64,000 nt of DNA from Haloarchaeobius salinus (lineage in GTDB: Archaea; Halobacteriota; Halobacteria; Halobacteriales; Natrialbaceae), in assembly GCF_024464185.1 (NCBI RefSeq), contig NZ_JANHAU010000007.1, forward strand, positions 62,001 through 126,000. Direction: 5' to 3'. Made by a program: the position numbers and the translations under genes. Shown in pieces: positions 7,102 to 50,921 of this stretch. Position 1 is the first letter of the stretch. The number at the start of each line of letters is the position of its first letter. A model generated the notes under the pieces. That model was given only the letters and a program-made list of their open reading frames with translations, was not told where the DNA came from and did no database searches.

Positions 7102-7154
7102 TTCAAGACAGCGATTACAATTGATGAAGGGCAAGCAATTAATCGTCGGATAAT

Positions 7155-27130: not shown

Positions 27131-28219
27131 CTACCGCAGTTCTTCGTCTAAAACCGGCGTCAGTTGCTCGTGGAACTCTACCAACCTATCGACGGCCCAC
27201 TCTTTGAGCCCCTCATCCTCCAGAGCCTCGTCCAGTCGGCCAACCTTGCGTTTGACGAAGAGCCGCGTGTATCCGCTACTCCCGTACTCTTCGGAGTGGA
27301 TCCCCTCGGGGACATCCAGAGGTCGGTCTTCGATCGCCGCCAACATCGTCTCGAGCATCTCTTCGTTCCGTGTGGACTCGTCGAACTGGAAGTTCATCAC
27401 GACGTGGAATTCCTTGTCGCCGGGGTCACCCTTGAAGTGCCACACGAACTCGACGTCCGAGTGGCCGGCGGGAATCGTGATCCAGCTGTCGCTGCTGGCT
27501 CTCCTGCTCGTGACGCCGGGGAGTTCAACCTTGAAGCGTTCGAGTACCTCGCCGAAGAACCGCCGGTACTTCTTCTGCTTCGGCGATGCTTCACGCTCCT
27601 TGATTTCCTGCGTCTCGTCGGCGCCGATGATCGTCGGGACGAACATCTCGGCGTCGTCTCGCTCGTAGTAGTCGAACTCGACGCAGTTGATCTTCAGGTC
27701 GTGAGCGTCCCGCAGCCAGCGCGTCATCCGGCGGACGTCGTCGGTGATCGTGTACGCGACCAACATGAGCTGGGGCGACTCCAGCCCCTCGACGAACTCC
27801 CGTTCGAAGTCGTCGATATCGAACTCCGAGTCCTTCTCGTGGTCGAACGCCTCGTACAGTTCCTCCAGCGACTCGTAGTTAGTGAGGTCGAAGAACTCGT
27901 CCCGGTCCAGTCGGGCCAGCGAAGACGCGTAGTCGAAGAGTTGGGTCACGGCCGACCGCGGCGAGCGGTCGCGCTTGAACTCAATCGTCGTGAGTGTCCC
28001 CCTCTTGTCGCACACGAGCAGGTCGGGCTCCTTGCCGGTGGGCAACTGGATTTTGCTCCCGAGGACGACGTTCTCCCGTGTCGTGAGCGTCCCCATCACC
28101 AGCCTCGGATCACTGTGGATTACCTCGTGAAGGTCGTCCTCTAAATGTTCCTCGCTGTACTCAACCTCCTCGAGGTATTCGATTTCGCTATCCTCGCGTC
28201 GAAAGCCGATCAGTGACAT
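27131..28219 (-). CDS. PD-(D/E)XK nuclease-like protein
   Basis: A 362-residue protein; I start at ATG 28219 (MSLIGFRREDSEIEYLEEVE), the second in-frame Met. Residues about 20-100 look like an NucS/DUF91-type nuclease core: EEHLEDDLHEVIHSDPRLVM, then EPDLLVCDKRGTLTTIEFKR, which supplies Asp, Glu and Lys of a PD-(D/E)XK site. The C-terminal half, with KQKKYRRFFGEVLERFK and GYTRLFVKRKVGRLDEALED, resembles the DUF4268-type domain often joined to such nucleases. It is the last gene of the minus-strand set that includes the helicase at 28367 and the two-module protein at 31249; a 147-base gap separates it from the helicase. A role in cutting or recognising foreign DNA fits, but is inference. Confidence 0.75.
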   Translation of the reverse strand: MSLIGFRREDSEIEYLEEVEYSEEHLEDDLHEVIHSDPRLVMGTLTTRENVVLGSKIQLPTGKEPDLLVCDKRGTLTTIEFKRDRSPRSAVTQLFDYASSLARLDRDEFFDLTNYESLEELYEAFDHEKDSEFDIDDFEREFVEGLESPQLMLVAYTITDDVRRMTRWLRDAHDLKINCVEFDYYERDDAEMFVPTIIGADETQEIKEREASPKQKKYRRFFGEVLERFKVELPGVTSRRASSDSWITIPAGHSDVEFVWHFKGDPGDKEFHVVMNFQFDESTRNEEMLETMLAAIEDRPLDVPEGIHSEEYGSSGYTRLFVKRKVGRLDEALEDEGLKEWAVDRLVEFHEQLTPVLDEELR

Positions 28220-28366
28220 TGCGGATAAATGTGGGCTCCCACTCAAAGGATTTTGCCGTTAACCAGACTGTTTGGAAGGGATACGCGGGAAATTGATGGA
28301 AATATAGAGGGACTCATTGTTGGAGTTCCACGAGAAGTAAGCTAGGGCTCAGATATCCGAGATAGT

Positions 28367-31246
28367 TCACAGATCCTCAAGCGAGAATTCTGACTCGTCC
28401 GTCAAGCTCCCAGTTTCGTCCGCATGATAGGTCAACTCAGATGGGTCACTAACTTCTCCGAGGTACACCCACTCATCATTGAGGAAGGTAATGGCATGGT
28501 CGGCTTCGTTCACCGTGACACTCCCGCCACCTTTCTCTCGATAGACGAACGACGCCACTTCTTGGTAGTCCTCAGCCTCGATGATTTTCCGGCCGTTCGA
28601 GGTCTTCGAGAAAGCTCGCCCTTCCGAATCGACGCTGAATTGGAACCCCTCTCGTGGTCCCTCATAGGGGTCACCTCTCTCTATTTCATCTGTGTCGGGG
28701 ACTGTTCGAACAGTCGGGGGTTCCGGAATCTCGTCGTCAGTCGCGGATCGTAGTATACCATCAATCGTATCCTCGTCGGTATCCCACGTGAGGTGTCGAA
28801 CTTCTGCTCGAGACAACTCCTTCCGCCAGTCGTAGCGATCGAATATATTCTCGTCGACCGTATCCCGTGCGTACAATACGTACAACTCAGCCTGTTTGTC
28901 GGGGTTCTCGCCGGTCCGGAGGATTCGCCCTAACGTTTGAATCCGTTGTCGAACACTCCCAGAAGAGACTCGGACGATTCCGACGTCAGCACTAGGTACG
29001 TCCACACCTTCGATGAGCGCCTTCACACTTAACATGACATTCGCGAAGCCGTCGTCGCCGAACCACTCGATGGCGAAGTCGTTCCATGCGTCACTACGAT
29101 GGCCCGAGTGGTACATCACCGGCCGATAACTCGATTTAAAGAAGAGGTCCTCAAGACGGTCGTCAATTCGTTCCAGCTCTGGATATCGATTGTACAGCTT
29201 AGCTCGGTCGACATCGGTGTCAGTACCCTCACCAGCCCCGTAATTCCGCCCTCGAGTTTCCTTCGGGGCCACCATCCGCTCTAACTGCTCAATCCGTTCT
29301 TGGAAGACGATCGTCTTCTGATCGCTTTCGAGATTTCGATTCAGGAGGTCAAGTGTTACAGCCTGTCGTGCAACGGCGTCGGCTACCAGTTCTCGTCGTT
29401 CAGTCGTGTACTCGAAATAGTCGGTGATGGCTGGAGTCGGGCTCTCGGCTTCGTTTTTAATCACCTGTAGCTTCCTGGCAAAACTCCCGTCCAGCTCGTA
29501 CAGGCGATTCTGATACTGTCGTTCGATATCGGTGATCGCATCAACTACAGCGTCGGTCAAACGGTCGTAGGCCATCTGCTCAGCGTCGGTCAGTTCGAAC
29601 CCAACGTAGTTGATCCGGAACCGGGGGATCAATCCACGTTCTAACCCTTCATCGTACGAGAGCTCGTAGTAGATCTCGCCGAGGTTCGAGAGCAGCATTT
29701 CGTCCTCCGGGCTGAGTTCCTCCCCTGTCGGGTCTGACAGCGGTGTCGCGGACAGGCCGAGGGCAGCAGTCCGTTCACAATCGAAGATTTTCGAGAAGTG
29801 GTCACCAGTGTACCGGTGACACTCGTCTGCGATCAATAAGTGCTCAGTCGTATCGATATCGCTCAGCCGCGCGCTCAAAGCATCGTTCTTCACGGCGGAA
29901 TTGACGATCGAAATCAGAATCCGTGGACCGTCCCCGAACGAATCCTTGTGGCCGTCACCGAGCCAGCCAACATCACTCGGTGGGACTCCCAGGGTGTCGA
30001 CTAACTCTTCCAACCACTGGTGCATCAACACCTTCGTCGGCACCACAACTGTAACGACACCCTCGCTGTTGTTCTCGAGCCACTGTCGGATCACAGCTAG
30101 CGCCATCACTGTCTTCCCGGCGCCCGTCACGACCTGAGCGATTCCGTGCTCTGGTCGGGTTTCAGTATCGGCGAACCACTCGTTGACAGCTTCTCGCTGC
30201 CAGTCGTACAACTCGAACTCCTCCGGGAAGGTATAAACCGGCCGGTCGGTTGCTGCCAGTCTTTCCAGATCAGTCCGCGAGAAGCCACTTCCTGCGCCGG
30301 ACTTTACACGACTTGCTTCTTCTGGAGAATCCGCGTTAGCAATCCGTTCCAGGACAGCCGTTGAGAGCCCAGCGAGATCCCGCGGCTCGAATCTCTCGAA
30401 CCGACTGCAGATGTCGTCTCGGAGGCGTTTTCGTCGCCGCTCCTGCTCAACGTAGAGCTCTGATCGCCGTAATTTTGGTTCCGAAGAATCCTCGGTTACG
30501 GACTCATCGAGGTATTCCTTCCGTGCGGTGTCCAACAACCGGCGGTGTTGACCCACACCACCCGACTCCCGATACATATAGTATTTCGCGAGGTCCCGTT
30601 TGACCCGGTCTGACGGAGGGAACGAAGTCGCCCCTTCCCGCTTGAGCCACTGCTCGTACTGCCAGAGAATATCTGCCTGCCGGAACCGGTCGCTGAACTT
30701 GTTTGGATTCCCGGCGAGGAACCCACTCTCCCGCTTATCGAGAGCGCCCATTTGCTCCAGCAATGGTAGATACCCCCGGATACCGCCGTCGTTGAACTCG
30801 TAACCGTAGCGATCAGCGAGCCGGACGCGGATCTCTTCGCGAGAGATGGGCTCCTCAACTCGTTTTACCACCCGATGGATGTTGTACAGTCCCTCAATTC
30901 CCTCTGGATACGATCCTTCCAGCGCCCAGGACTGCTTCACCCCGTACCAGAGCAACGTCTGAAAATCTATCTCGCCTTGTCTCCACTCGTGACCGAACTC
31001 GTAGACCGTGATCCCATCTGCAGTCTGATTGAGCACTCCGACATGGGCGTACGTGGAGACAACCCGGGACATGTACTGCTCGGAGTACGCGTCCCCGTTG
31101 GGCTTCGTAAGCCGTTCCCGCGCGATCTCTACGAGGTCAGCTTTCGGGATCGGTTCCGAAGACTCACACGCAATTTCCACGAAGCATTCACTCCGATGCC
31201 GGATGTCCTCCATGCCAAACAGCGGAGTGGGAAATCGCCGACCCAT
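28367..31246 (-). CDS. SF2 helicase, XPB-like, with a long N-terminal extension
   Basis: A 959-residue protein. Residues 1-350 hold wHTH-like stretches (IPKADLVEIARERLTK, SREEIRVRLADRYGYEFNDG) and no known catalytic motif. The helicase core follows: VTGAGKTVMAL (Walker A, about 372), ADECHRY (Walker B, about 472), LSATPLSD, and the second domain with SVKALIEGVDVPSAD and RQRIQTLGRILRTGE. The DECH box and motif VI fit SF2 enzymes of the XPB/restriction-helicase group. The C-terminus (about 840-959) is an extra domain. Its ATG at 31246 lies just after the TGA of the two-module gene, so they are in one operon. It probably moves on DNA for the neighbouring nuclease. Confidence 0.85.
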   Translation of the reverse strand: MGRRFPTPLFGMEDIRHRSECFVEIACESSEPIPKADLVEIARERLTKPNGDAYSEQYMSRVVSTYAHVGVLNQTADGITVYEFGHEWRQGEIDFQTLLWYGVKQSWALEGSYPEGIEGLYNIHRVVKRVEEPISREEIRVRLADRYGYEFNDGGIRGYLPLLEQMGALDKRESGFLAGNPNKFSDRFRQADILWQYEQWLKREGATSFPPSDRVKRDLAKYYMYRESGGVGQHRRLLDTARKEYLDESVTEDSSEPKLRRSELYVEQERRRKRLRDDICSRFERFEPRDLAGLSTAVLERIANADSPEEASRVKSGAGSGFSRTDLERLAATDRPVYTFPEEFELYDWQREAVNEWFADTETRPEHGIAQVVTGAGKTVMALAVIRQWLENNSEGVVTVVVPTKVLMHQWLEELVDTLGVPPSDVGWLGDGHKDSFGDGPRILISIVNSAVKNDALSARLSDIDTTEHLLIADECHRYTGDHFSKIFDCERTAALGLSATPLSDPTGEELSPEDEMLLSNLGEIYYELSYDEGLERGLIPRFRINYVGFELTDAEQMAYDRLTDAVVDAITDIERQYQNRLYELDGSFARKLQVIKNEAESPTPAITDYFEYTTERRELVADAVARQAVTLDLLNRNLESDQKTIVFQERIEQLERMVAPKETRGRNYGAGEGTDTDVDRAKLYNRYPELERIDDRLEDLFFKSSYRPVMYHSGHRSDAWNDFAIEWFGDDGFANVMLSVKALIEGVDVPSADVGIVRVSSGSVRQRIQTLGRILRTGENPDKQAELYVLYARDTVDENIFDRYDWRKELSRAEVRHLTWDTDEDTIDGILRSATDDEIPEPPTVRTVPDTDEIERGDPYEGPREGFQFSVDSEGRAFSKTSNGRKIIEAEDYQEVASFVYREKGGGSVTVNEADHAITFLNDEWVYLGEVSDPSELTYHADETGSLTDESEFSLEDL

Positions 31247-31248
31247 AA

Positions 31249-32124
31249 CTACCAGTCGGTCGGATCGTCGTCGGGGATGTCCGGTCCATCGTCGTGAGTA
31301 GCGTTGCCCGTCGGGTCATCCACAGTATGATCTTTGGGGTTGGTCGCGGATGACTCACCCAGCGAATCAAGCCAGCTATCGACTCCACCCTGCTCGTCGA
31401 ATGGGTCGGTCAACGACCGCGGCTCGGCGACCGAGAGTGGTGTCTTCTGGATTTGACCCACGTAGATTGGGAGTTTCCGGACCCCGCCACGCTCTCGTCG
31501 TAGCGCAATGAGATTCTTGACGACACGGGGGAGAGCGTCGAACTCGTCGCGTGTGTCCTGAGGGAGCCGGTCGAGATCGACGAGCGTCAGGACATCGTTC
31601 CACGGTGTCACTCGTAACGAGCCACCCCGTGGTTTGTATCGAGCAAGGCTGTTCACGAGTTCTGGTTCTAAACTATCCTGAACTGGGTGGTCCTTGTGTG
31701 TCTGCGGATTAGCCCACCAGATGCGGTCAACGCCTGGACCGAACGAATACTTCGCCCCGTCATATACACTCGGCCAGAGATCGCCCGGTTCAACACCATC
31801 GGGCTGGAGAGGGATGCTGTACTGAGGATCTTCCGGGGGAACCAACTCGCCTGAAAGCGAGATTTCCCCGACCCAGTACGTCTCATAGTCATCGCCGTCT
31901 TCCATGCGAGTGAGGACATCGTTGTCCTCGGTGATCCGAACCCGACCACCGAGCCGCTTGAGTTCGAGGAGGGACTCCACTAACGCTTCGGGAGTTGGGT
32001 CAACGTAGAGGCGGTCCGTCCCTTGGTAGGCCTGCCACCACACATCTCCATCGGGGTTGGTCCGAAGGCGATACCCCCGATAGTGATTCGACCATTCGTC
32101 TCCGGGCTCGTATGTTTGAGTCAT
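31249..32124 (-). CDS. Two-module protein of unknown function, paralogue of the 38.5 kb protein
   Basis: A 291-residue protein if started at ATG 32124 (MTQTYEPGDEWSNHYRGYRL); a TATA-like AAATATATTT lies about 55 bases upstream, and a longer start at 32208 is possible. Two similar modules are visible, about residues 8-90 and 108-230. Each has a Trp/Tyr-rich start (GDEWSNHYRGYRL; GDLWPSVYDGAKYSF), a GG-R-[VL]-R-[IV]-T-x-x-N-D-V-L-T core and ends in YWVGEI or PIYVGQI. The gene at 38471 has the same two modules. The C-terminus is acidic and disordered. I cannot name the domain. It begins the minus-strand operon with the SF2 helicase. Confidence 0.7.
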   Translation of the reverse strand: MTQTYEPGDEWSNHYRGYRLRTNPDGDVWWQAYQGTDRLYVDPTPEALVESLLELKRLGGRVRITEDNDVLTRMEDGDDYETYWVGEISLSGELVPPEDPQYSIPLQPDGVEPGDLWPSVYDGAKYSFGPGVDRIWWANPQTHKDHPVQDSLEPELVNSLARYKPRGGSLRVTPWNDVLTLVDLDRLPQDTRDEFDALPRVVKNLIALRRERGGVRKLPIYVGQIQKTPLSVAEPRSLTDPFDEQGGVDSWLDSLGESSATNPKDHTVDDPTGNATHDDGPDIPDDDPTDW

Positions 32125-32278
32125 CGCTTTGGTGTGACGAGAGCGAGAGTCACTTGCTCGGTGGAGTAGGTCCGCAAATATATTTCTGACGACACCACAC
32201 CCACTCATTCTATCAAAAGTTAAATATTCGAAACCGAAAGCCGAAGTCGGTTTGAAGCTGAGTCTTGATATCGGCGAT

Positions 32279-32289
32279 AAGATTTATTC
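32279..32289 (+). promoter_or_regulatory. TATA-like box of the SNF2/zinc-repeat operon
   Basis: AAGATTTATTC is centred about 30 bases before ATG 32315, which is consistent with a nearly leaderless transcript. The two divergent operons start within about 190 bases of each other, so this region probably controls both. Confidence 0.5.
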
Positions 32290-32314
32290 ACCCACCGATT
32301 TTCTAACGATCTAG

Positions 32315-34093
32315 ATGTCAGACGATGCGGAATTGCCCGATGTTTCACCTCAGATCTCGTATTCTATTGACGATTCCTCGGCCGCAACCCGCGCACTTTC
32401 GGATGACTCCGAGACTGCCACCGGACATCTGTTGAATGTTCAGGCCCGTGAATTCGAGATTGCGCAGGGTCAGCAGGAACTGCTCTCCGTCGAAGAAATA
32501 AAGGACCGAATCAAGCTGCTTGACCACCAGCTTCAGGCGGCACACCGTGCGCTCTTCCAGATGAGTGGGGGAGCACTCTTCGCGGACGAGGTTGGACTCG
32601 GGAAGACAATCGAGATCGGGATGGTCCTAAAGGAGATGGATTTCCGCGATACTCGAGATACATTCCTCATTATGACTCCTGCTCAATTAGCTCCCCAGTG
32701 GCAGAACGAACTCCAGGAGAAGTTCGGTCTCGACTTCGTCTGTAACTACGACGACGACTTTCTCGGCTTCGATGCGCACGACAAAATCATCGCGAGTGTC
32801 GACACTGCGAAATCGAAGACGAACCGAGACGATGTTCTCAATCGCCGCTGGGACGTCGTCGTTCTCGACGAGGCCCATTACGTGCGCAACGAAGACACAA
32901 TGCGGTACGAACTGATCGACGAACTCGACTACGGTGAAGCGTTCTTCGCGACTGCGACACCGATCCAGAACGATATCTCCGACCTGTACAATATTGTCGA
33001 CCTCATCCGGCCCGGAATGTTGGGTACTCGTCAACAGTTCGACCAGCGGTACGTCGTCGACAGTGACGATGCGCAGATTAAACGAGCCGACGAACTCCAA
33101 GAAAAACTCAACCGGGTGATGATTCGGAACCGGCGCGAAGAGACGAAGATCGATTTCACGAACCGAGAAGTCCACACGAACATCTTCGAACCGTCGAGTG
33201 CTGAAAGCGAACTCTACGATGCGGTCACGGACTACGTCCGTTCGAACTACTCCAGCCAAGGGGCTCGCCATCTCGTTCTGTTTACACTCCAGAAAGAGGT
33301 CGTCTCCAGCCCGTATGCCGTTGAACAGACGATTGACAACTGGGTTAGCGATGACGAGAAACACCTCACTTCATCAGAACGTGAGCACCTCGCTGAAATT
33401 CGGGAGATAATCGGGGATATCAGTCGCACGACGAAGCAAGAACGCCTCAGTCATATCATCGAGACGATACGCGACCAGATTGGCACCACACGAGCAGTCG
33501 TGTTCACGCAGTTCAGGCCGACACAAGACGCTATCGCGGACGGCTTGAGAGACTTGGACCTCCCGGTTCACATCGTGAACGGCGACCTCTCCAGCAAAGG
33601 AAAGGAACGGATGGTTGCAAAATTCCGTGATGAGGGCGGTGTGATGGTGGCGACCGATTCGATCAGTGAGGGGCGAAATATGCAATTCTGCAACGTCCTG
33701 GTCAACTACGACCTTCCATGGAACCCGATGAAGGTAGAACAGCGGATTGGCCGTGTCGATCGGATTGGCCAGGACCGTGAGGTCCACGTGTTCAATATGG
33801 CGCTTGAGAACACGATAGAGGAACACGTCCTCGACAAACTGTTCGGGAAGATCGACCTCTTCAATCAGTCCATTGGCGGCCTCCGAGATATCCTCTCACG
33901 GATGGAGAAGTCTGGCTCGGACTTCGAGCGGGAGGTGTTCGAGAAGTTGCGGCATGCGGATTCCGAGATCGAACTCGAGAACAATTTCGAGGAGATGGCC
34001 GTTGATCTCGAAGAGAATACCGAGGCCCAAGAGAAGATGGACGACTTCAATCGGCGAGTATTCGATACTTTCGAGTTCGGTGAGAGCGCATGA
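32315..34093 (+). CDS. SNF2-family ATPase (RapA/HepA-like)
   Basis: A 592-residue SF2 protein of the SNF2 group. Motif I DEVGLGKTIEIGM is at about residues 89-101, motif Ia IMTPAQLAPQWQNEL at about 124, motif II LDEAHYVRN at about 184, motif III FATATPIQND at about 211, and the second domain ends with VEQRIGRVDRIGQDREVHVF at about 475. SNF2 proteins remodel or translocate along double-stranded DNA and are core parts of DISARM (DrmD) and related defence systems, but this one lacks the extra N- and C-terminal domains of DrmD. Its TGA overlaps the ATG of the zinc-repeat gene (ATGA), so they are coupled. Confidence 0.9.
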   Translation: MSDDAELPDVSPQISYSIDDSSAATRALSDDSETATGHLLNVQAREFEIAQGQQELLSVEEIKDRIKLLDHQLQAAHRALFQMSGGALFADEVGLGKTIEIGMVLKEMDFRDTRDTFLIMTPAQLAPQWQNELQEKFGLDFVCNYDDDFLGFDAHDKIIASVDTAKSKTNRDDVLNRRWDVVVLDEAHYVRNEDTMRYELIDELDYGEAFFATATPIQNDISDLYNIVDLIRPGMLGTRQQFDQRYVVDSDDAQIKRADELQEKLNRVMIRNRREETKIDFTNREVHTNIFEPSSAESELYDAVTDYVRSNYSSQGARHLVLFTLQKEVVSSPYAVEQTIDNWVSDDEKHLTSSEREHLAEIREIIGDISRTTKQERLSHIIETIRDQIGTTRAVVFTQFRPTQDAIADGLRDLDLPVHIVNGDLSSKGKERMVAKFRDEGGVMVATDSISEGRNMQFCNVLVNYDLPWNPMKVEQRIGRVDRIGQDREVHVFNMALENTIEEHVLDKLFGKIDLFNQSIGGLRDILSRMEKSGSDFEREVFEKLRHADSEIELENNFEEMAVDLEENTEAQEKMDDFNRRVFDTFEFGESA

Positions 34094-37000
34094 GCGTCGA
34101 CGACGTCGGCTCTCTCAATCGCCTCGAGACACGACGGTTCACGGCATCGACGATCCAAGCCTTCGGCGGTAAAATAGATCGAAGCCAAGCTGATTGCTGG
34201 CGAGTCACCCTCCCGGAGCCGTTAACAAATCTTTCGGAAAGTCGGGAAGTGGCAGTCGTCTTCGATCCGAAAGACCAGCAGCCGGGTCGCGAAGAACTCT
34301 TGATTCAGCCAGGATCACTCCCGTTCAACGAGCTTTTGGGACTAACAAAACAGGAGGTATCAGTCGGGAGAATCCACCTCTCGGCAGCAGATCTGCAAAC
34401 TCCGCTCCCGGACGCACTCGACGTGTCAGAGCTGACTGTTCGAGTGGATGAGTTCGAACCAGAACAGACTGCAGATGCAGTCTCGTTCCATTTCCTCGTC
34501 GAAATGGAGAGTGTTTCATCATTCCACCGGGAGCGGTTCGAAACAGTTACGCTGGATCTTGCGACTGGGGGACGTCTCCCCGATCTCACCCAGCGCCTAC
34601 TGGCCCACACGAGTAATCTCGCCAATTCTCACCGAACGGTCTCGATAGATCCCGAGGACGAGGTCGTCGAGGACCGCTACGAGACGGCAGTCGAAGAGGT
34701 CGAAGCACGTATCGAAGACGACGCCGCAGAACTGCTCCAGGAGGCGACCGAAGCCGCTGAGACGCGGAGTGAAGAGATCAAGGATCTATACGATCAACGG
34801 CGCCAAGAGGCACGGGAGGAGTTCCGCGGCGGCGCCCTCAGGAGACGAAAAGAGGCATTCGCCGAACGGGAGCGGGAAGAAATCGAGGAGATGGTCGCGA
34901 GACACGACGTCGCCGTGAACGTGACGCTGGTCGGACTGACTCTAGTGGCACACGATAAAGGGTCCCTCTCTCTCACCCTCGACGACGGAGAGAACACTGC
35001 AAGCACGACTGTGCAGTACGCACCAGCCACAGGGACCGTCGATCAGTTCGATTGTGCGACTTGTAGCACTGGATTCGGTCCGAAAACTCGCCCCCAAGTC
35101 TGTACATGCGGGACTGTCGTCTGTGCTGGTTGTCTCAACGTGTGTGAGTCATGTACCTCACCCGGGTGTCCAAACTGTGACCCCCCAATGTGTGAGTGCG
35201 AACTCTGCCACCGAGTCGAGTGTCACGACTGCAACTCAGAATGTGCCCACTGTGGTTCGATAGTCTGTTCAGCTCACATCGAAACGTGTGGGGCAACCGG
35301 CCAAGAAACCTGTCTGGCTTGTGGCCAGCCATGTAACACCTGCGACGAGTTCCACTCCGACGACCATCTCGCCCAGTGTACAGTCGACGGAGACCTCCAT
35401 TGTGACTCACACTGCAGTCACTGCGGGGTTTGCTCTGAGACCATCTGTTCCGACCACGCAGACGCCTGCACTGCATGCGAACGAACCCTCTGTCCGAGCG
35501 ATCGAGTGTCCTGCGAGACATGTGGCGACACCCGGTGTAGAGACGACGCGTTTGCCTGCGACGGATGTGGAGGCTATCATTGCGCAGAAGACATCGCAAC
35601 GTGCGAGGTTTGTGAGGGTCAGTTCAGCGAGGGTCATCTCGCAGAATGTGCAGTTTGTAGCCGGGCAGTCTGTGAATCGGACCATGGACAGTGCCGGCTC
35701 TGCGACGACATCGTCTGTACCGAAGACAGCATTGAGTGTGCGACGTGCGGAGCAGTAACCTGCCTAGAGCACGCAGAGGAGTGCGACCTATGTGACGAGT
35801 CGTTCTGTGAAGACCACTTGGAGAGTTGTGGCACCTGTGAGACCACAGTCTGTGACTCCGACCGCGTTCACTGTACAGCCTGTGATGCAGTTGCCTGTTC
35901 AGACCACGCACAGAGTTGCGACGCCTGCAACGACGATCTCTGCCCTGAGCACGGGACCAGTTGCAGTGAGTGCGAGGATACACTCTGCCCTGAGGACACT
36001 GTTCAGTGTGCAGACCACGAGGAACCACTGTGCCCGAGCCACTCGGAAACCTGCATCCAGTGTGAACGAGCGTTCTGCTTCGACCTCGTCCAAACATGCC
36101 AGTACTGCCAGGAACCCGTCTGTGACTACGACTCCGGAGAGTGTACCCACACAGGGAAGGCTGTCTGCTCTGACCACCTCGAATCTTGCACAGTCTGTGA
36201 GGACTCGTACTGTCCAACCCACGGCGCAGTAACTGAGATAGCCTCTGAGTTCCGTTGCCTCGATCACTCCGCTTGCTGTGCCGAATGCGGCGGTGATTTC
36301 GCCCCTGAGAATCTGATCGGCTGTACGCACTGCGGCGAGTTGGTCTGTGACTCTGATGCGGGCGAATGTGTAGTGTGTGACGAGCACTTCTGCATGTCTC
36401 ACGGCGTGGTGACGGGGCTGACGGGAAGCTTCCACTGTCACGACCACGCGGAACAGTGTGTCGAGTGTGAGGGGTATTTCGACGAGGCGAATCTAGTTGA
36501 CTGCGATCACTGTGGTGAACCGGTCTGTGATTCGCATAGCGAGGAGTGTGCCGAATGTGGCGACGTACTCTGCCAGACCGATAGTGGACGGTGTTCAGTT
36601 GACGATGCAACTCTCTGCGAGAAGCATCTTACTTCCTGCAGTGTCTGTGGCGACGATCTGTGCGACAATCACCTCTCGGTCTGCACATCCTGCGGCGATG
36701 TGATTTGTCCAGCCCACGCTGAGCCCTGTGCAACCTGTGACGCCCTCCACTGCCCGGCCCATCTCGAAGAGTGCGCTGACTGTTTCGACTCCCATTGTTC
36801 ACAGCACATCGAGGCCTGCAAGAGCTGTGGTGATCAGTACTGCGCCGATCATCTCAGCAGCTGTGCTGAATGCGGTGAGCCGGTGTGCATCGTGGACAGT
36901 ACTCTCTGCCGCGGATGCGATGAGCTGGTGTGTCCGGACCACACTGATCGCTGTAGTGTCTGTGACGGCGAATTCTGTCCAAACCATCGCTCTCAATGTG

Positions 37001-37536
37001 GGACGTGCGGCGAGACACTCTGTTCAGACCATAGTGTAGCGTGTGGCGACGATGGGGTCGAGCACTGCTCGCAGCACATGTCGAACTGTGAGGTCTGCGA
37101 ACGCGAAGCGGGAATGAAAGACGTACAACCACGATGTGAGGACCATCTCGTCTCCTGTGTGGTTTGTCAAGAGCGACTCTGCCGTGAGCACGCGTCTTGG
37201 GCTCCAATCACGAAGGCAGCGGTGTGTGCTGAGCACCGAGCCGAATGTTCGACTTGTCGGCAATACGTTTCGGAGCGTGTGCTCCAGAATGGCAAGTGCT
37301 CCACCTGCCGTAAACTGAGATCTGACGGACTAGCACTGCTGCCGGACGACTTCGAACTCCCGGAGGCAGTGAACACCGACTCGGGGGAATTCGGCGTGAA
37401 TTCTCGCTATGTCGTTGCTCGTCAGTCACACCTGCTCCGCTCCGACGAAATCATCGTCGTGAGCCGCGAGAGCGAGTCAGTTGTTGAGCGACACAAGATC
37501 GGGATGCTCGCGAAGATCACAGGAGGGCGACTATGA
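34090..37536 (+). CDS. Giant Cys/His zinc-repeat protein, partner of the SNF2 ATPase
   Basis: A 1148-residue protein. Residues 1-190 form an uncharacterised globular part (QADCWRVTLPEPLTNLSESR). Residues about 190-275 are a charged coiled coil (EEVEARIEDDAAELLQEATE). From about 320 to 1075 runs an array of more than forty units with the form C-x2-C-x4-C-x2-[HD]-x3, 15 residues per unit, for example CTSCGDVICPAHAEP. Each unit offers four metal ligands, or pairs of units could share ions. A conserved C-terminal piece (RYVVARQSHLLRSDEIIVVS) closes it. I know no described archaeal protein with this layout. It may be a scaffold or DNA/RNA-binding arm for the helicase. Both ends overlap neighbouring genes (ATGA). 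Confidence 0.85.
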   Translation: MSVDDVGSLNRLETRRFTASTIQAFGGKIDRSQADCWRVTLPEPLTNLSESREVAVVFDPKDQQPGREELLIQPGSLPFNELLGLTKQEVSVGRIHLSAADLQTPLPDALDVSELTVRVDEFEPEQTADAVSFHFLVEMESVSSFHRERFETVTLDLATGGRLPDLTQRLLAHTSNLANSHRTVSIDPEDEVVEDRYETAVEEVEARIEDDAAELLQEATEAAETRSEEIKDLYDQRRQEAREEFRGGALRRRKEAFAEREREEIEEMVARHDVAVNVTLVGLTLVAHDKGSLSLTLDDGENTASTTVQYAPATGTVDQFDCATCSTGFGPKTRPQVCTCGTVVCAGCLNVCESCTSPGCPNCDPPMCECELCHRVECHDCNSECAHCGSIVCSAHIETCGATGQETCLACGQPCNTCDEFHSDDHLAQCTVDGDLHCDSHCSHCGVCSETICSDHADACTACERTLCPSDRVSCETCGDTRCRDDAFACDGCGGYHCAEDIATCEVCEGQFSEGHLAECAVCSRAVCESDHGQCRLCDDIVCTEDSIECATCGAVTCLEHAEECDLCDESFCEDHLESCGTCETTVCDSDRVHCTACDAVACSDHAQSCDACNDDLCPEHGTSCSECEDTLCPEDTVQCADHEEPLCPSHSETCIQCERAFCFDLVQTCQYCQEPVCDYDSGECTHTGKAVCSDHLESCTVCEDSYCPTHGAVTEIASEFRCLDHSACCAECGGDFAPENLIGCTHCGELVCDSDAGECVVCDEHFCMSHGVVTGLTGSFHCHDHAEQCVECEGYFDEANLVDCDHCGEPVCDSHSEECAECGDVLCQTDSGRCSVDDATLCEKHLTSCSVCGDDLCDNHLSVCTSCGDVICPAHAEPCATCDALHCPAHLEECADCFDSHCSQHIEACKSCGDQYCADHLSSCAECGEPVCIVDSTLCRGCDELVCPDHTDRCSVCDGEFCPNHRSQCGTCGETLCSDHSVACGDDGVEHCSQHMSNCEVCEREAGMKDVQPRCEDHLVSCVVCQERLCREHASWAPITKAAVCAEHRAECSTCRQYVSERVLQNGKCSTCRKLRSDGLALLPDDFELPEAVNTDSGEFGVNSRYVVARQSHLLRSDEIIVVSRESESVVERHKIGMLAKITGGRL
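35046..37313 (+). repeat. 45-bp coding period encoding 15-residue zinc-ligand units
   Basis: The gene has a strict 45-base period through most of this stretch, seen as TGT/TGC codons at positions 1, 4 and 9 and a CAC/CAT or GAC/GAT codon at position 12 of each 15-codon unit. Units differ at most other positions, so this is an old protein repeat under selection and not a young minisatellite. A few units carry short insertions (near residues 715 and 760). Confidence 0.85.
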
Positions 37537-38465
37537 GTCGCCGAGGCGATGCACCGACTTGGTACAGTCCAGGTGAGGTGCAATCGACAGTTCGTCGAGC
37601 GCTCTCGAACAATGTCGACCTGGAGAAGATCGTCTCCGTATTGGGTGAACGCGAGCTCGACAACGTTCAACACTCCCGCGTCGAAGCGATCATCGAAAAT
37701 GTCTCTGAGAACACCGAAGAGGCGTCCATCAAACCGCATCTCTCACAACCTCCGTCGACAAAGGCGGAGCCTCGTGAGGTTCGCGGGCGACGGCTAAGCG
37801 CCGATGATTTCGAGTTTTTCTCGAATAGGGAAGCTGCCCGCGTACTAGGACTGGTTCTCGAGTCGTTTGACGGGAACACACTCAGGATGGGACCCCACGA
37901 CCAGGTTGAATCCGATCTAGTCTGGAACCGACAGGGTGGAACCATCGCACTCCTGATCGTCCCCACAACCGAGGAAGCTGTAGACTCTCACCAGGTCGAC
38001 GCACTTCTTGAAGGCCAGACAGTTCCCGAAGACCGTCGAAGCCCCTCCGAACTCGCGGTGGTGACTAACGGGTCGTTTACGGATCAAGCATTGGGTTACG
38101 CCGAAACGAACGACATCCGGTGCTATGATGGCGGCCATCTCGAAGCCTGGCTCCAGCGTGTGCTCGTGCCGATGGATGCCGTGGGAACGGTCTTGGAGGA
38201 AGGCGAAGATCATGATGGGCCAATCTTAGAGATCGTCGATATCCCGTCGATCCCAGCTCCCCGCGCCACAATCGCTCCCCTGGAGATCGAACCGGTATTC
38301 GAAGTGGAGATGGGCGAAGAGGAGCCAGGGCCCAAAGGTCGGTTAGGACGGGATGACCCACTGAAGGGCACCGACCCTGACACAGGCCAGACCGGGACGC
38401 TGTACGCTGACCCAGAAGAAGACGGCGAGTACGGAGCGTTCGAAGACTACCTGGAGAGTATCTAA
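37533..38465 (+). CDS. Mrr-like protein with an altered active site
   Basis: A 310-residue protein. Residues about 95-210 follow the Mrr-type restriction-endonuclease fold: FFSNREAARVLGLVLESFDG, then HDQVESDLVW, GGTIALLIVP, LAVVTNGSFTDQALGYAETN and a final CYDGGHLEAWLQRVL. The first acidic residue (ESD, about 127) is present. The (E/Q)-x-K pair, which should sit in ALLIVPTT (about 140-145), is not there, since Pro replaces the usual Lys. It may be a DNA-binding relative without cleavage. The N-terminus and the acidic C-terminus are not recognised. Its ATG overlaps the zinc-repeat gene's stop and it is followed by the two-module paralogue 5 bases later. Confidence 0.7.
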   Translation: MSRRGDAPTWYSPGEVQSTVRRALSNNVDLEKIVSVLGERELDNVQHSRVEAIIENVSENTEEASIKPHLSQPPSTKAEPREVRGRRLSADDFEFFSNREAARVLGLVLESFDGNTLRMGPHDQVESDLVWNRQGGTIALLIVPTTEEAVDSHQVDALLEGQTVPEDRRSPSELAVVTNGSFTDQALGYAETNDIRCYDGGHLEAWLQRVLVPMDAVGTVLEEGEDHDGPILEIVDIPSIPAPRATIAPLEIEPVFEVEMGEEEPGPKGRLGRDDPLKGTDPDTGQTGTLYADPEEDGEYGAFEDYLESI

Positions 38466-38470
38466 TATTC

Positions 38471-39367
38471 ATGACAGCGATATTTGAAGAGGAGTCCACG
38501 ACAGTCCCAGTGAAGAATGGCCAATCGATCACCATCGAACCTGGAAATCCCTGGCCGTCTGCGTACCGAGGGTCAAAGTACAGTCTGGTCTCGGACGACG
38601 ACTTCGAGGATACAGTGTTGAAATGGGAGCACCGAGACCTCAACATCTTCACAGAACCACCGTCAGGTCTCAGGCGAGCGCTGGTACTTCTTGGGAAAAG
38701 TGGCGGTCGCGGGAGCATCCGTGTGACTGCAGATAATGAGGTTCTCACGAAGATCCCCGCAAAAGACTACGAACACGTTGACCAGGCACCGGTCGACAGT
38801 GGATGGGTCCCCGTCTACGTCGGCAAACTCCAAACCCCGATCGATTTCGAGGAGGTTGAGACTGATCCGACGCCACCCACCCAGTCGAGTATCAAGGTGT
38901 GGCAGGGTTTCACGTTCAATAACGGTGAACGATGGGCCGTCGGTCACGACGGCAAACTTGTTTGGAAGTGGCGGGATTATCGATTCGAGTCCGCGTTCAA
39001 TCACCCCGAACTGGTTGCCGAATATCAGAAATATCGAGGGACTGCGGGCCGGCTCTACATTACCGAGAATGCCCATGTCTGGGTGAATTTGCCAAGACAA
39101 GACATTAGATCGGAACAGAAAGAGACGGTTCGGAGAGCCATTACTCAGTGGAAACAAAAGGCCGAAGAGGCTGATGATACTGCCTCGCTTCGACTGGTCA
39201 ATCGTCGACTGGTCGCAACCAGCCAGCAAGACGACCCCTCGACTGGTCACTTCCCTATCCATATCGGTCATCTGGGGAACTTCGACGGGGGGAAGATTCC
39301 GCGGCCGGTCGTCGACGACGAGAGCTACTACCAGGCAGTCTGTGAGTACGAGACAGTGTGGGAGTAG
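38471..39367 (+). CDS. Two-module protein of unknown function, paralogue of the 31.2 kb protein
   Basis: A 298-residue protein. Module one (about residues 20-125) begins GNPWPSAYRGSKYSL, has GGRGSIRVTADNEVLTKIP and ends PVYVGKLQTP. Module two (about 143-272) has GRLYITENAHVWVNL and ends FPIHIGHL. The first module closely matches the second module of the protein at 31249-32124 (GDLWPSVYDGAKYSF, GGSLRVTPWNDVLTL, PIYVGQI). So two paralogues with duplicated modules stand at the two outer/inner ends of the divergent operons. No catalytic motif is visible; a binding role is likely. It is the last gene of the plus-strand operon. Confidence 0.7.
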   Translation: MTAIFEEESTTVPVKNGQSITIEPGNPWPSAYRGSKYSLVSDDDFEDTVLKWEHRDLNIFTEPPSGLRRALVLLGKSGGRGSIRVTADNEVLTKIPAKDYEHVDQAPVDSGWVPVYVGKLQTPIDFEEVETDPTPPTQSSIKVWQGFTFNNGERWAVGHDGKLVWKWRDYRFESAFNHPELVAEYQKYRGTAGRLYITENAHVWVNLPRQDIRSEQKETVRRAITQWKQKAEEADDTASLRLVNRRLVATSQQDDPSTGHFPIHIGHLGNFDGGKIPRPVVDDESYYQAVCEYETVWE

Positions 39368-39799: not shown

Positions 39800-40795
39800 A
39801 TGATAACGGCCGTGGTCTATTCAGAATCGGGCGGGACCTACAAAACGACGATGACGGCCAACATCGCCGTCGCACTGGAGCGAATGGGGCTGAACACGCT
39901 CGTTCTGGATTTAGACCCACAGGAAGGGAATCTGACGAGCCTGTTCGACGCTGGTGAGAACCGGAGCGATCCAGAGGCGGATAATCTGGTAAAGCACATC
40001 CTCGACATGCCAGACGGGGAGTTCGACGACCTCATCGAGACGACCGACGAAGGCATCGACATCATTCCGAGCCACGACATGCTCGGGGACTTCACCTCGA
40101 ATCTGGAGCAGAAGATCTCGTACGAGACAGGGATGAAAAACATGAGTCGAGAGGAGTATCCACGCTTCGAGCTACTCTACGATCTCCTCTGGGAGAAAGA
40201 GAAGTTGCAGGAGCAGTACGACGCGATACTCATCGACCCGAACGCACGTGCGGAAGATCTCCTCTACAACGCTATCTACGCGCTCAGAACGCTCGTGGCC
40301 CCAGTCAAGCCCGCAGGTAAGGGGAACCTGAGTCTCGAAGGGCTCGAGGAGCTCGTCGGGAACATGAGCAGTCAGCTCGAAATCGAGATTGGGCTTTCCT
40401 GCGTTGTCCCCTCTGGTGTTGGCCAGACGAACGCGCATCAACAGTACCAGCGGCAGTTCGAGAACACGGATGCATTTGACACGCCTGTCGCAATCGGAAA
40501 CCGCGAGAGTCTCATGGACGCCATGTGGGAGGCCAGAGGCTCTGCGTTCAAGGTTGTCGAGGAACGGTGGAAGACGTTCCAACGAGATGGCGAGATGGTG
40601 AGTGAGCCTGGACAGCGTCGAGTGCGGGAAAGGGAAATCGAAACGCTCCGGAAAATCTACGAACTCGCGTGGTTCATTGCGACCGAAACGTTCGATGCTG
40701 ACGTCGACCCGGTGCTCGAGCTGGACATCGATGACTACGAGACCCGGACAATCGACCTACGAGCGGACAAGGAAACGGAGGCGACCACCGCATGA
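39800..40795 (+). CDS. parA: ParA/SojA-like partition ATPase
   Basis: A 331-residue deviant-Walker ATPase. The start ITAVVYSESGGTYKTTMTAN has the GG-x-x-KTT deviant Walker A (about residues 10-16), and VLDLDPQEGNLT (about 37) is the switch region with DLDPQ. AILIDPNARAEDLLYNAIYA (about 146) is the Walker B equivalent. It drives plasmid segregation with a partner that binds the iterons upstream. Its start is 20-80 bases after the inverted iterons, and its stop overlaps the next start (ATGA). A decayed second copy lies at 54.1-54.5 kb. Confidence 0.9.
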   Translation: MITAVVYSESGGTYKTTMTANIAVALERMGLNTLVLDLDPQEGNLTSLFDAGENRSDPEADNLVKHILDMPDGEFDDLIETTDEGIDIIPSHDMLGDFTSNLEQKISYETGMKNMSREEYPRFELLYDLLWEKEKLQEQYDAILIDPNARAEDLLYNAIYALRTLVAPVKPAGKGNLSLEGLEELVGNMSSQLEIEIGLSCVVPSGVGQTNAHQQYQRQFENTDAFDTPVAIGNRESLMDAMWEARGSAFKVVEERWKTFQRDGEMVSEPGQRRVREREIETLRKIYELAWFIATETFDADVDPVLELDIDDYETRTIDLRADKETEATTA

Positions 40796-41274
40796 ACAAT
40801 TTCAAATCCGGTTCAGGAAACCTCGATTTCGGGGGTGATGAGAGCGACGAGGAGCCAGAAGAGGACGAAGAAGACGTGAGTGTAGAGTCATTCCCTGAAG
40901 AGGAGCCCGAGCAGACCGAGCAGGAATCACCCGTAACAGCCGACAGTCCCTCGATAGAACGAGCTCGTTCTCCGGCTGAATCCCGCGATTTAGCCACTGA
41001 AGGGCCCGATTCGGACGAAAATCCACGAACAGAGTACCCATACTTCATTCGGCGGAACAACGTCGGGGACGAGCGAGACAAGCGTCTGGAGATCCACGTT
41101 CGACAGAACGTTGCGGATCAGGAAGCCGACTTCCGGAACGAGCTCGCGGCACAACTGGGGACAGGGGAGGTCTCAAAAACGGATGCTCGCGAGTTTGCAC
41201 TGCTTGCTGCGTTTGAACACCCAGAACAGGTCGCGGAGCTGATGCGGGATGAGGGATTTGGTGCGCTCGACTGA
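40792..41274 (+). CDS. Small acidic partner of ParA, candidate iteron-binding protein
   Basis: A 160-residue protein. The first 85 residues are acidic and disordered (DESDEEPEEDEEDVSVESFP). The C-terminal part, EIHVRQNVADQEADFRNELA with VSKTDAREFALLAAFEHPEQ, is helical and begins with a strand, which would fit a ribbon-helix-helix-like fold, but I cannot prove it. It overlaps parA by 4 bases. In haloarchaeal plasmids such small second genes are the likely ParB analogues. Its target would be the TCTGTAAC iterons. Confidence 0.65.
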   Translation: MNNFKSGSGNLDFGGDESDEEPEEDEEDVSVESFPEEEPEQTEQESPVTADSPSIERARSPAESRDLATEGPDSDENPRTEYPYFIRRNNVGDERDKRLEIHVRQNVADQEADFRNELAAQLGTGEVSKTDAREFALLAAFEHPEQVAELMRDEGFGALD

Positions 41275-41880: not shown

Positions 41881-42348
41881 ATGACACGCCGCTGGGTTAC
41901 CTGTGGAACACCCACGATTCCTGGAATACTGAACCCAATGACTGCAGCGTGTGATCGGGGATTTGTTCCGGACACCATCCACATCCTGTCGAATCCACCA
42001 GTCATGGAGTATGTCGAAGAGACACGGGGCCTGATGGCCGAAGTGATAGCTGCGTATGGAGGCGATGCAGAAACAGAAGTCCACGAACTAACGCACGAGA
42101 CCGATTTTACGAGCATCGTCGACTTCTACCGAACACAGGTGGAGCAATCAGCAGATGACGATGAGGTAGCGATCGACGTCACGCCAGGGCGGAAGTTCAT
42201 GTCCGCAATTGCGTTCCAGGCAGGTATCCAGTTCGGTGCGGACCACGTCTACTACTTTCATCGGAAGTCTGGGGGATACTACGGACAGTTCTATCCCGAG
42301 ATTCCACGCACAGCGACCGACCTGATCGACTTCACCGAGGTGCTGTAA
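41881..42348 (+). CDS. CARF-like domain protein
   Basis: A 155-residue protein with a Rossmann-like pattern. It opens with a strand and loop (RRWVTCGTPTIPGILNPM), and later has DVTPGRKFMSAIAFQAGIQF (about residues 99-118), which matches the D-x-[ST]-x-G-x-K-x-M core of CARF ligand-binding domains, followed by GADHVYYFHR. CARF domains bind cyclic oligoadenylates or related signals and control linked effectors. Its stop TAA overlaps the ATG of the PIN-domain gene by one base, so the two form a coupled pair. No CRISPR array or cas gene is visible in the window. The domain call is by pattern and not by a profile search. Confidence 0.65.
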   Translation: MTRRWVTCGTPTIPGILNPMTAACDRGFVPDTIHILSNPPVMEYVEETRGLMAEVIAAYGGDAETEVHELTHETDFTSIVDFYRTQVEQSADDDEVAIDVTPGRKFMSAIAFQAGIQFGADHVYYFHRKSGGYYGQFYPEIPRTATDLIDFTEVL

Positions 42349-43385
42349 TGGAGGTCAGCCGACGTCGGTTGACCGTCCTGCTGAATGCATTGTATGATGA
42401 GGGTGTCGACTCGATTCCGGTCGAGCACCCAGCCAGTGACATCGGAGAGTTGGCCCGTATCGAACTTGAGACAGATGGACAGGTGACCGTCAGATTCACA
42501 CAGGGGTCGTTCACCTACCAAGAGAACCGAGAGGGTATCCCCGCAAAGTACGGGGAAGCGGCGCACGATGATCTCCCAGACGCCGAGACGTATACCCGGG
42601 CAGCAGTCGCGAGTTCTCTTGTCGAGCTCGACAACCGCGATGAGATAGACGCGTTCTTCGACCGGCATGGATACCCCGACCTCGAGGCTGGGCACGGACC
42701 GGTCGTCCTTGGATTGGACACGAACATCATTCCCTGGCGACTTCCTGAGATTCTCGGTGTTGACAGCGACACCGGCGACACTGACGAGAAGGGTCGTGCG
42801 CCAACGAACGGCTATGCGCTGGCCACGGGTGTGAAGGAAGAGCTCGACTGGCACTACAAGCAGTACAACACACACGAACTCACCGCCGCCTTCGGGGAAG
42901 AATTCACACGCCTCGACAATCAGCCGGCAGGGAGCAACCGAGAGGGGTTCATGGGACTGTATGAGTATCGACGCCTCCGGACGAACCGGACGGTCGATAT
43001 CATAGAATCCAACACCGGTGATGAAGGAATCGTCGACGCCTACGAGGCTTTTAACGAAGAGAGTCGCAAGACTGCGGTGCTTCTGAGCAACGACCGCGGC
43101 TTCATCACCAGAGCAACTGAGGCTGGCGTTCCCGCCCAGCACGTCGACTTCCCGCTCGACATGCCGCGGAAGGTGACCGGAACCTGGACTGACGCCTGTG
43201 AACTGCTGTACTACCTCGCGGTGCTGTTCGGTGTCGTCAAGCTCCCGAAGGTCACGGTGTACGGTGTCTGGAACGGCAAAGATGGTCGTCACTGGCAACA
43301 CGAACAGCTCGACATGGACTGTCGCAGTCCCAAGATAGAACCCAGACTGACGCGGGATCTGCGGATTCTCGATGCGACAGACTGA
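42348..43385 (+). CDS. PIN-domain nuclease-like protein
   Basis: A 345-residue protein. The acidic PIN residues are visible: GLDTNIIPWR (Asp about 124), a Glu in GVKEELDWHY (about 164) and LLSNDRGF (Asp about 247). The first 110 residues are an extra domain (PASDIGELARIELETDGQVT), and the region after the PIN core is conserved-looking (DACELLYYLAVLFGVVKLPK). PIN domains cut single-stranded RNA or DNA. Coupling to the CARF-like gene suggests a signal-controlled RNase effector. The long insert between the Glu and the last Asp is unusual for small PIN toxins. Confidence 0.75.
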   Translation: MEVSRRRLTVLLNALYDEGVDSIPVEHPASDIGELARIELETDGQVTVRFTQGSFTYQENREGIPAKYGEAAHDDLPDAETYTRAAVASSLVELDNRDEIDAFFDRHGYPDLEAGHGPVVLGLDTNIIPWRLPEILGVDSDTGDTDEKGRAPTNGYALATGVKEELDWHYKQYNTHELTAAFGEEFTRLDNQPAGSNREGFMGLYEYRRLRTNRTVDIIESNTGDEGIVDAYEAFNEESRKTAVLLSNDRGFITRATEAGVPAQHVDFPLDMPRKVTGTWTDACELLYYLAVLFGVVKLPKVTVYGVWNGKDGRHWQHEQLDMDCRSPKIEPRLTRDLRILDATD

Positions 43386-44957: not shown

Positions 44958-45280
44958 CGTTGTCTGAGTATCAGAGCCCACCACAATGGATTTTTCGGGA
45001 GTATTTGACCCGGTGGAGAGATTATTTGACTTCTATAGTACTGGCTACCGCGGGTTCTTAGTTCGTATCGGCAGTGATATTCACCGTCAGGAGGTCGTTT
45101 TTATCGATATAATAGACTAGGATATGATTCTTACCGATGTTTTTAATACATCTTGGAACACATAGTTGCTTGTGGTGGCCGGGAAAGGAACACTGCGATG
45201 TCGGTAATCATCGAGATGGGTTTCCACGGTCGAATCCGGTCACCCGCTGGCTGTACGGGGAAGACAGCGCACCAGAACCG

Positions 45281-47389: not shown

Positions 47390-47453
47390 CCACGAACCGA
47401 CCGGAACAACCAACCAGAGCCAGTCAGCCGTTCCCAGTCATTTTTCTGCCGTC

Positions 47454-50400: not shown

Positions 50401-50921
50401 TCGACGTCGTCGGGCGTGATCCCGGCACGTTTCATCGCCGGGATGAACTTCAGGAGTCGATCCGAAGCCCCGCTCGCATAGTCTACGCCCTCGTACACGT
50501 CCGGGTTCGTGAACCGGTATGGCATCTCGTCGAGGACCTCGTAGCTGAGCGCGAACCGGTCGGCGTCCGTTGCGATGTCGTACCGCGGGTCGAGGTCCGC
50601 GTGGTACGCGAACTCCTGCAGGAGCTCGTGGCAGATGGCGTGGTAGGTGTACGCCTCGATGTCGTATCCCTGTTCGCCGACAGTCTCGACGAGTTTCTCG
50701 CGCATCGAGTCGGCAGCTTTGTTCGTGAACGTCAGCGCGAGGATACGGTCCGGTGCCGTTCCGTTCTCGATGAGTCGCTGGATCTTCCGAACCATCGTGA
50801 ACGTCTTCCCCGTACCAGCGCCAGCTCGGACTCGCATCGGGTAGGCATCGCTCTCGATGATGTCACGTTGGGCGTCTCGTGGCTCTGGGACTTGCTCGTG
50901 GGCGGTTCTGTTGTCAGTCAT
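47454..50921 (-). CDS. UvrD-type helicase fused to a PD-(D/E)XK nuclease
   Basis: A 1155-residue SF1 protein. Motifs visible are RAGAGTGKTFTM (Walker A, about residues 32-43), CDEYQDTDTVQFELV (motif II, about 370), VGDADQAIYEWRGA (motif III, about 392), TIHKSKGLEFPVVVL (motif V, about 715) and HVGITRAEELSIL (motif VI, about 775). From about 950 a RecB-type nuclease follows: VGLIDALCRRQNGDLVVLDY with K in DYKAT. The Cys in TFETCQRRHY together with CKYCPHRSLSC near the end likely bind an iron-sulfur cluster, as in AddB. It is the third gene of the operon; its ATG overlaps the stop of the previous gene. Confidence 0.9.
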   Translation of the reverse strand: MTDNRTAHEQVPEPRDAQRDIIESDAYPMRVRAGAGTGKTFTMVRKIQRLIENGTAPDRILALTFTNKAADSMREKLVETVGEQGYDIEAYTYHAICHELLQEFAYHADLDPRYDIATDADRFALSYEVLDEMPYRFTNPDVYEGVDYASGASDRLLKFIPAMKRAGITPDDVDAYLPSVDRLFELGALTDEIHDAADEHLRVGWQKITRDRLDEMIDNLGAMELTLAELRADLHDDGMEAHVASYLDVMSETCVSMGVFLDENRAEILDGDLTYSFKLPAHLFGQYSGAPKGMPSLDYSLPGKLDEFVERCQTLSDLAPGYRAYEARLDEENLLDFNDLVLATVDLLQDDTVAGWLGERYDYVFCDEYQDTDTVQFELVQRLAAEADLFVVGDADQAIYEWRGANVENIGPRLDETYPNLHDETLEENFRSRQPILDLANNALSHLEARASDKELTAVGDAADADTGVVTLEADEEPEDEAAQLTNALVRLINGDNDIADTEYSPGDIAILVRKKRHARPIADELTSAGIPYELGGDLASEAPGVETVIAALKALANPHDDVALNRVLAMRYRIHRKDLERLNTHELPRTGSDEETPLQTSLLELPLDELTEPERVETAREQLGDLWAKRDTYSLSRLYQELKSTMRIEWFLSEQERRDLRALDEVVSSFEEGAVEPELSGRFIEFLDQHDIITEVSDREMEDQPEAQEAAVSIMTIHKSKGLEFPVVVLPQLRADEWEPQARTYDVVEHVLDGGSPLDHDFAERDEHEARRLLHVGITRAEELSILSGRYDDSDDDSGDETISPATVGDVLPGTVPWSIDGVSFPIWETIQESRPPTAIDGTETLASPVDVTGRVAAVEGQQQYSRSAGQDRVLGLAKQALEGDLDPALADELPPDIIGEPADATLHRRHSYTSLDTFETCQRRHYLSHVVRAFDDPVTGQGIGAGNSGPSQQAIGILFHDTAERAADRGYTSKAEWLALAERVAMIRGEGDVLPAVEECIERFFQTEASEWEILAAERGFELSFDGESIVGLIDALCRRQNGDLVVLDYKATQKERSLDDDLQLPIYLLACEQLFEEPVRTAGYAYVGEQGPRIDLREFTDADLDRVREQLSDRLSDAAESSFGTYTAGDHCKYCPHRSLSCSDEADIDISH

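Follow-up and report, generated by a model that had tools for sequence, protein, structure and literature searches.

Seven neighbouring genes of Haloarchaeobius salinus, at positions 27131 to 39367 of the window (the whole 64,000-nucleotide stretch that was analysed), raise the question of what two helicase-type ATPases, nuclease-like proteins, and a giant zinc-repeat protein do together. Systems built on helicases make up a large share of prokaryotic immunity that is still poorly understood, and those of archaea have been sampled too little. A preliminary description of this DNA had proposed that the seven genes, in two head-to-head operons, form a new defence system. All seven open reading frames (g1 to g7) were found, with g1 to g3 on the minus strand and g4 to g7 on the plus strand, and the divergent layout and tight spacing given in that description were confirmed: ATGA overlaps join g4 to g5 (34090-34093) and g5 to g6 (37533-37536), g2 and g3 are separated by 2 bases, and g6 and g7 by 5 bases. 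The start of g3 is probably at 32124 rather than 32208, because the first 28 residues of the 319-amino-acid open reading frame are unmatched in its homologues (n = 16). A conserved operator was sought in the g3-g4 intergenic region (32125-32314) and none was found.

Gene counts in 392 Halobacteriales genomes, with genes at related loci called by a simple codon-bias caller, bear on whether the seven genes are inherited as a unit. Genes g2 to g7 occur together in at least 10 further haloarchaeal loci, divergent or colinear and in conserved order, whereas g1 is missing from all complete sets but that of the window; the conserved unit is thus six genes (g2 to g7) and not the seven originally supposed. 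The six-gene sets comprise L031, L082, L083, L084, L085, L086, L088, L089, L101, L106, and L116, and named hosts include Halorhabdus tiamatea (L085, plasmid pHTIA), Halopenitus malekzadehii (L086), Haloferax marisrubri (L089), Halobellus rarus (L101), Haloarcula amylovorans (L106), and Haloferax lucentense (L116, plasmid). Since all six genes lie on a single strand in L086 (L102 is colinear too), the divergent arrangement in two operons, though the usual one, is not essential. In split sets (L081+L090, L102, and L113+L114), g4-g5-g6-g7 lies within ~15 kb of a separate g3-g7-g2 triad, and the copies at L087, L104, and L109 are either broken or cut.

The counts for single genes agree closely. 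An intact g7 homologue is present in 18 of the 392 genomes, and 3 more have the 3' end only. Profile searches found full-length g2 in 17 genomes, every one with g7 (17 of the 18 g7 genomes), and long-form g6 in 11, all with g7 and 10 with g2. Hypergeometric P values for co-occurrence, uncorrected for relatedness, range from 1e-14 to 1e-29. In trees of g4, g2, and g7, the six-gene loci form one clade each (support 96/95 for 15 loci, 98, and 99), and the inner order of the three trees matches where resolved. The distribution is patchy, at 11 to 18 of 392 genomes across families, and the window g4 is 85% identical to a Halobellus g4 from a different family, which suggests horizontal transfer. Phylum-wide sampling found no member beyond Halobacteriales, no g7 relative was found in phage records or IMG/VR, and SNF2 matches in viral contigs were distant only. 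Remnants of g7, consisting of its last 26 to 45 codons at 73 to 79% identity, lie in genomes G106, G111, and G081 (L125:13682-13811, L100 at ~7033-7119, and L124 at ~4980-5057). These were examined as a possible recombination site; their flanks share little sequence, and we therefore take them as mere fossils of lost copies.

Three of the six genes, g2, g3, and g7, are linked by a common building block. The 959-amino-acid product of g2 (28367-31246) is an SF2 helicase of the XPB/ResIII type, as previously called, with a ResIII match of 3e-24, an XPB-like C-terminus, an N-terminal winged-helix-like region, and a C-terminal domain of the two-module type. Its nearest relatives are PbeA (1.6e-47) and XPB helicases; the match to TIGR04095 (4e-35) reaches 121.6 bits, below the cut-off of 600. 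The SF2 motifs TGAGKT, DECH, SAT, and QxxGRxLR are intact and invariant or nearly so in 16 sequences. A module of ~90 to 130 residues occurs twice in g3 (31249-32124; modules at 31843-32115 and 31444-31797), twice in g7 (38471-39367; modules at ~38528-38836 and ~38888-39280), and a fifth time at the C-terminus of g2 (residues 855 to 940; 28427-28684). Profile comparison gave E values of 1.6e-16 for g7N-g3C, 7e-15 for g3N-g3C, 6e-12 for g7N-g3N, 2.4e-8 for g3N-g2C, 3.7e-6 for g7N-g2C, and 1e-6 for g7C-g3C, against 0.03 or worse for controls. The first of these values bears out the paralogy of g3 and g7 that had been proposed; among the five copies, the case for the second g7 module is the least strong. 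Because the small module is common to all three proteins, we infer that g3 and g7 probably assemble on g2 or on a common ligand. The structure model of g7, although confident (pLDDT 91.4, pTM 0.90), had no PDB or BFVD (viral) fold match at an E value of 0.001 or better, its profile had no sequence match in the PDB, and no PADLOC, NCBIfam, or Pfam model reached significance for g3, g5, or g7.

The remaining three genes center on a second ATPase. The 592-amino-acid product of g4 (32315-34093) consists of a SNF2 helicase core only (SNF2 match 1e-33, as the preliminary call had it), with invariant DEVGLGKT, DEAH, and QRIGR motifs, and its nearest relatives are DrmD (1.5e-77), BrxHII (2e-64), HmaA, and ZorD. 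The N-terminal part of g5 (residues 1 to ~318; 34090-35043), which contains a RapA-like region and a coiled coil, is homologous to a short (~390-amino-acid) SNF2 partner in DUF499/DUF1156 loci. A model of g5 matched the fold of the SNF2 protein RapA with an E value of 7.7e-6 over 306 columns, in a single moderate-confidence model (pLDDT 74, pTM 0.33); we assign the match to the N-terminal part because it is the only non-zinc stretch long enough for 306 columns. Together, g4 and the g5 N-terminus resemble a SNF2 remodeller of the RapA/BrxHII type that has been divided between two genes.

The zinc-repeat character claimed for g5 lies far beyond chance. Residues ~322 to 1090 (35053-37359) contain 45 CxxC motifs. 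Most of these share a single register of 15 residues, with most units reading C-x2-C-x4-C-x2-[HD]-x3, and CxxC pairs exactly 15 residues apart number 27, compared with at most 6 in 2000 shuffles. The array, a long and probably rigid arm, is modelled as a repeating strand-turn-strand unit (pLDDT 80 to 86 across most of its length), and it is followed by a short, beta-rich C-terminal tail (37360-37533) with invariant N1104, V1123, and G1138. Homologues of g5 are 1029 to 1245 amino acids long. The array (~45 units of 15 residues) and the two-module adaptor g7 represent two protein types without known relatives among solved structures. The next gene, g6 (37533-38465), had been called Mrr-like, and this holds for its fold: the restriction-endonuclease fold and the Mrr aspartate D128 are retained, but the Mrr match (0.0046) lies below the Pfam cut-off and the catalytic motif is lost. 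Since the (E/Q)xK motif is replaced in all ten long-form sequences aligned, g6 is probably not a nuclease. The g6 homologue in L104 (188-3241) has grown to 1017 amino acids through a helix-hairpin-helix and eight DNA-binding repeats of the HNH type (PF18780, 4e-120).

The SNF2-zinc set occurs in three related forms: one adds a DUF499 ATPase and a methylase, another an active Mrr nuclease, and the third a dead Mrr protein together with a second helicase. This makes it directly testable whether systems of this kind cleave DNA, modify it, or do no more than remodel it. In the first form, a SNF2 protein (~584 amino acids) and a short g5 homologue (~390 amino acids) lie next to a gene for a DUF499 ATPase and, in most cases, one for a DUF1156 methylase. 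This is a BREX-related system in the sense of PMC12839542, its helicase divided between two genes. Haloarchaeal loci of this type include L033-L050, where the second gene of the split helicase is the short homologue of the g5 N-terminal part. The second, compact form consists of a SNF2 protein (593 to 595 amino acids), a 675-amino-acid zinc protein with 16 CxxC motifs, and a 216- to 218-amino-acid Mrr nuclease that keeps an intact D...QAK motif in all six homologues (Mrr_cat 1e-20). It is present in 6 of the 392 genomes, without the triad, at L126 (9577-14109), L127, L128, L129, L130, and L131, and it is by itself a candidate for a restriction-like system; next to the copy at L128 are apparent CRISPR cas genes. 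In the SNF2 tree the three forms are three clades, with the compact and six-gene forms as sisters (100/100) in a midpoint-rooted tree; the split between the first form and the compact form, where long branches meet, calls for caution.

The surroundings of these loci were also inspected: defence genes flank the six-gene loci, and the window neighbourhood is defence-rich, although such neighbouring genes could be passengers. On its left side the island ends at about 27 kb; the ordinary genes upstream read, by eye, as a histidine kinase and subunits of a cytochrome bd oxidase. Just downstream of g7 are a ParA-type ATPase and a small partner gene (39800-41274), and a degraded ParA fragment that resembles this copy by eye lies ~14 kb further on (54269-54676); a duplication or a plasmid-derived island boundary is possible. 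Adjacent CARF (155 amino acids, PADLOC CARF_m1 3e-58) and PIN (345 amino acids) genes at 41881-43385 make up a split CARF-PIN, with a homologous pair in L091 and a PIN homologue in L098. The stretch from 45137 to 53974 encodes a VWA protein, a UvrD helicase with a PD-(D/E)XK nuclease, a RecB-like nuclease, and a 716-amino-acid, possibly AddB-like protein, and relatives of these genes lie near triad or six-gene loci L082, L085, L087, L090, L094, L113, and L116. At 56363-63948, an N6-methylase-like gene, a 697-amino-acid protein whose likeness to DrmB/DUF1998 was judged by eye alone, and a helicase similar to DpdJ/DrmA (6e-37) are candidates for a further system that runs off the window. A family of MBL-fold hydrolases adjoins other triad or six-gene loci (L084:14841-17036, L089:422-2704, L116:2074-4356, and L117:19874-21694), next to a VWA gene in L116 and a VWA gene fragment in L089.

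We consider it reasonably probable that g2 to g7 constitute a horizontally mobile six-gene haloarchaeal defence system in which two modules cooperate, and which would act by remodelling rather than by cutting through its core enzymes. A point against this reading is that the unit contains no conserved modification enzyme or methylase and no active nuclease that we could find. A defence role is suggested by kinship, island context, and patchy distribution, and among possible roles an antiviral one appears most likely for this conserved multi-gene unit, which is undescribed in the sources searched. The first module, the triad, would consist of the PbeA-like SF2 DNA helicase g2 and the adaptors g3 and g7 that share its small module; the second would be the SNF2 remodeller of RapA/BrxHII type that g4 and the g5 N-terminus make up together. 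The zinc-repeat arm of g5 would carry or position the catalytically dead Mrr-like g6 and space it from the SNF2/RapA-like head. The triad may recognise, or load onto, the DNA of an invader or a viral complex that has stalled, and g7, at the end of the g4-g5-g6 operon, may couple it to the second module. ATP-driven remodelling would then block viral replication or transcription, without DNA cutting by the core enzymes.

Alternatively, the six genes might serve not defence but a RapA-like remodelling of transcription or replication, such as polymerase recycling or plasmid maintenance, and only happen to sit in islands. The RapA-like N-terminal part of g5, the g4 match to RapA (4.7e-46), and the plasmid location of some copies (two hosts, named above) would fit such a unit. 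We nevertheless hold it to be unlikely, as the genes are sparse (~11 of 392 genomes) yet spread across families, g4 is closer to DrmD and BrxHII than to RapA, the sister form carries a restriction-type nuclease with its active motif, and the triad is joined elsewhere to Pbe, Dnd, and pAgo genes.

These other contexts of the triad raise the prospect of two independent defence systems, a Pbe/Dnd-type accessory and a SNF2-zinc-Mrr set, that do not act jointly. Parts of the unit do occur separately: relatives of g4 and g5 (and in places g6) occur without the triad, as in the compact sets, and the g3-g7-g2 triad occurs without g4 to g6 at L091-L097 and L117. The triads lie beside other defence genes. 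The triad follows PbeA-PbeB-PbeC-PbeD in L090 and L092 and pAgo in L097; in L093, L094, L095, and L117 it comes after a gene for a GapS1-like nuclease and one for a 381-amino-acid protein. In L096 it precedes DndC and an ATPase of the DndD/PbeC type, and in L091 it lies between Dam-like and CARF/PIN genes. Against separate action, long-form g4-g5-g6 always has its own g7 downstream, L086 and L102 have colinear operons, the g2, g4, and g7 trees match, and split sets still keep the triad close by; two unconnected systems are thus distinctly unlikely. Judging from its neighbours, the triad may serve several haloarchaeal defence systems as a general accessory. A bolder version, in which the triad, as a helicase with module proteins of new fold, is a general haloarchaeal adaptor that plugs into unrelated defence effectors (SNF2-zinc, Pbe, Dnd, pAgo, and GapS1-like), the array a rigid solenoid, and the antiviral mechanism nuclease-free and remodelling-only, is speculative and, as a whole, rather unlikely.

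The seven-gene version, in which g1 would be a nuclease effector recruited to invading DNA by the other six proteins, we regard as very unlikely. The description of g1 (27131-28246) as a PD-(D/E)XK nuclease was sound: it is NucS/DUF4268-like, matches PADLOC PDC-S11 (1e-28), retains the PD...ExK motif, and is codirectional with g2, and distant relatives lie within a few kb of the six-gene locus L106 and the compact locus L129. However, 120 bases separate it from g2, PADLOC treats its family as single-gene, and a search of the other complete six-gene sets found no homologue except the distant one beside L106; by gene content, g1 is a neighbour outside the conserved unit. Chance proximity of g2 to g7 in an island with many other defence genes was rejected as exceedingly improbable, given the co-occurrence P values and the gene order conserved across families.

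The preferred reading, a six-gene remodelling system, has to be set against the named systems that it resembles. None holding the locus turned up in PADLOC, NCBIfam, Pfam, or the open-licence literature searched, in line with the initial proposal; neither the six-gene set nor the triad is described in that literature, and a description in subscription papers is possible. Membership of g2 to g7 in Pbe, BREX-related, DISARM, or Zorya systems was rejected, as defining components are missing. Zorya ZorD, a SNF2 helicase with an Mrr-like nuclease, offers the same combination that is here found in separate genes, and the compact relatives retain the nuclease motif; however, the ZorA/ZorB motor proteins are unmatched among g1 to g7, and g6 has no catalytic motif. 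Mrr-type restriction endonucleases share with g6 the fold and the conserved D128 but not the (E/Q)xK motif. DISARM DrmD and BrxHII are the best-scoring relatives of g4, yet these are fused proteins of 870 to 1040 amino acids, split here into g4 and g5; g4 also scores far under both NCBIfam thresholds for DrmD (259 bits against 950 and 248.5 against 610), and g2 to g7 include no DrmA, DrmB, DrmC, or methylase.

PbeABCD, a CxC ABC-ATPase system (PMC6459918, PMC10853773), is reported to stop virus DNA replication without cleaving DNA (PMC6459918), which is disputed (PMC10853773), and it would be the nearest functional analogy for the proposed replication block. Its PbeA resembles g2 by the match of 1.6e-47, with TIGR04095 below its cut-off, and the triad lies directly downstream of Pbe genes in L090 and L092. 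In contrast, g2 to g7 include no PbeB, PbeC (the CxC ABC-ATPase), PbeD (DndE-like), or Dnd genes, and g2 has its own N-terminal wing and C-terminal module, whereas the PbeA proteins beside the triad are separate proteins of 473 to 474 amino acids. BREX-related (Hma-type) systems combine a DUF499 ATPase, a DUF1156 methylase, and a Swi2/Snf2 helicase (PMC12839542). Neither the DUF499 ATPase nor the DUF1156 N6-methylase is among g1 to g7, although both adjoin the short-form pairs; the six-gene unit differs further in the zinc array that lengthens g5, in its additional genes g2, g3, g6, and g7, and in a g4 that forms a clade of its own. The RapA/BrxHII-type Swi2/Snf2 feature is present, split over two genes, and the haloarchaeal SNF2 proteins beside DUF499/DUF1156 genes are 52 to 58% identical to g4 and paired with the short homologue of the g5 N-terminal part. 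By sequence kinship, the proposed system appears related to the BREX-related, DISARM, and Pbe helicase systems.
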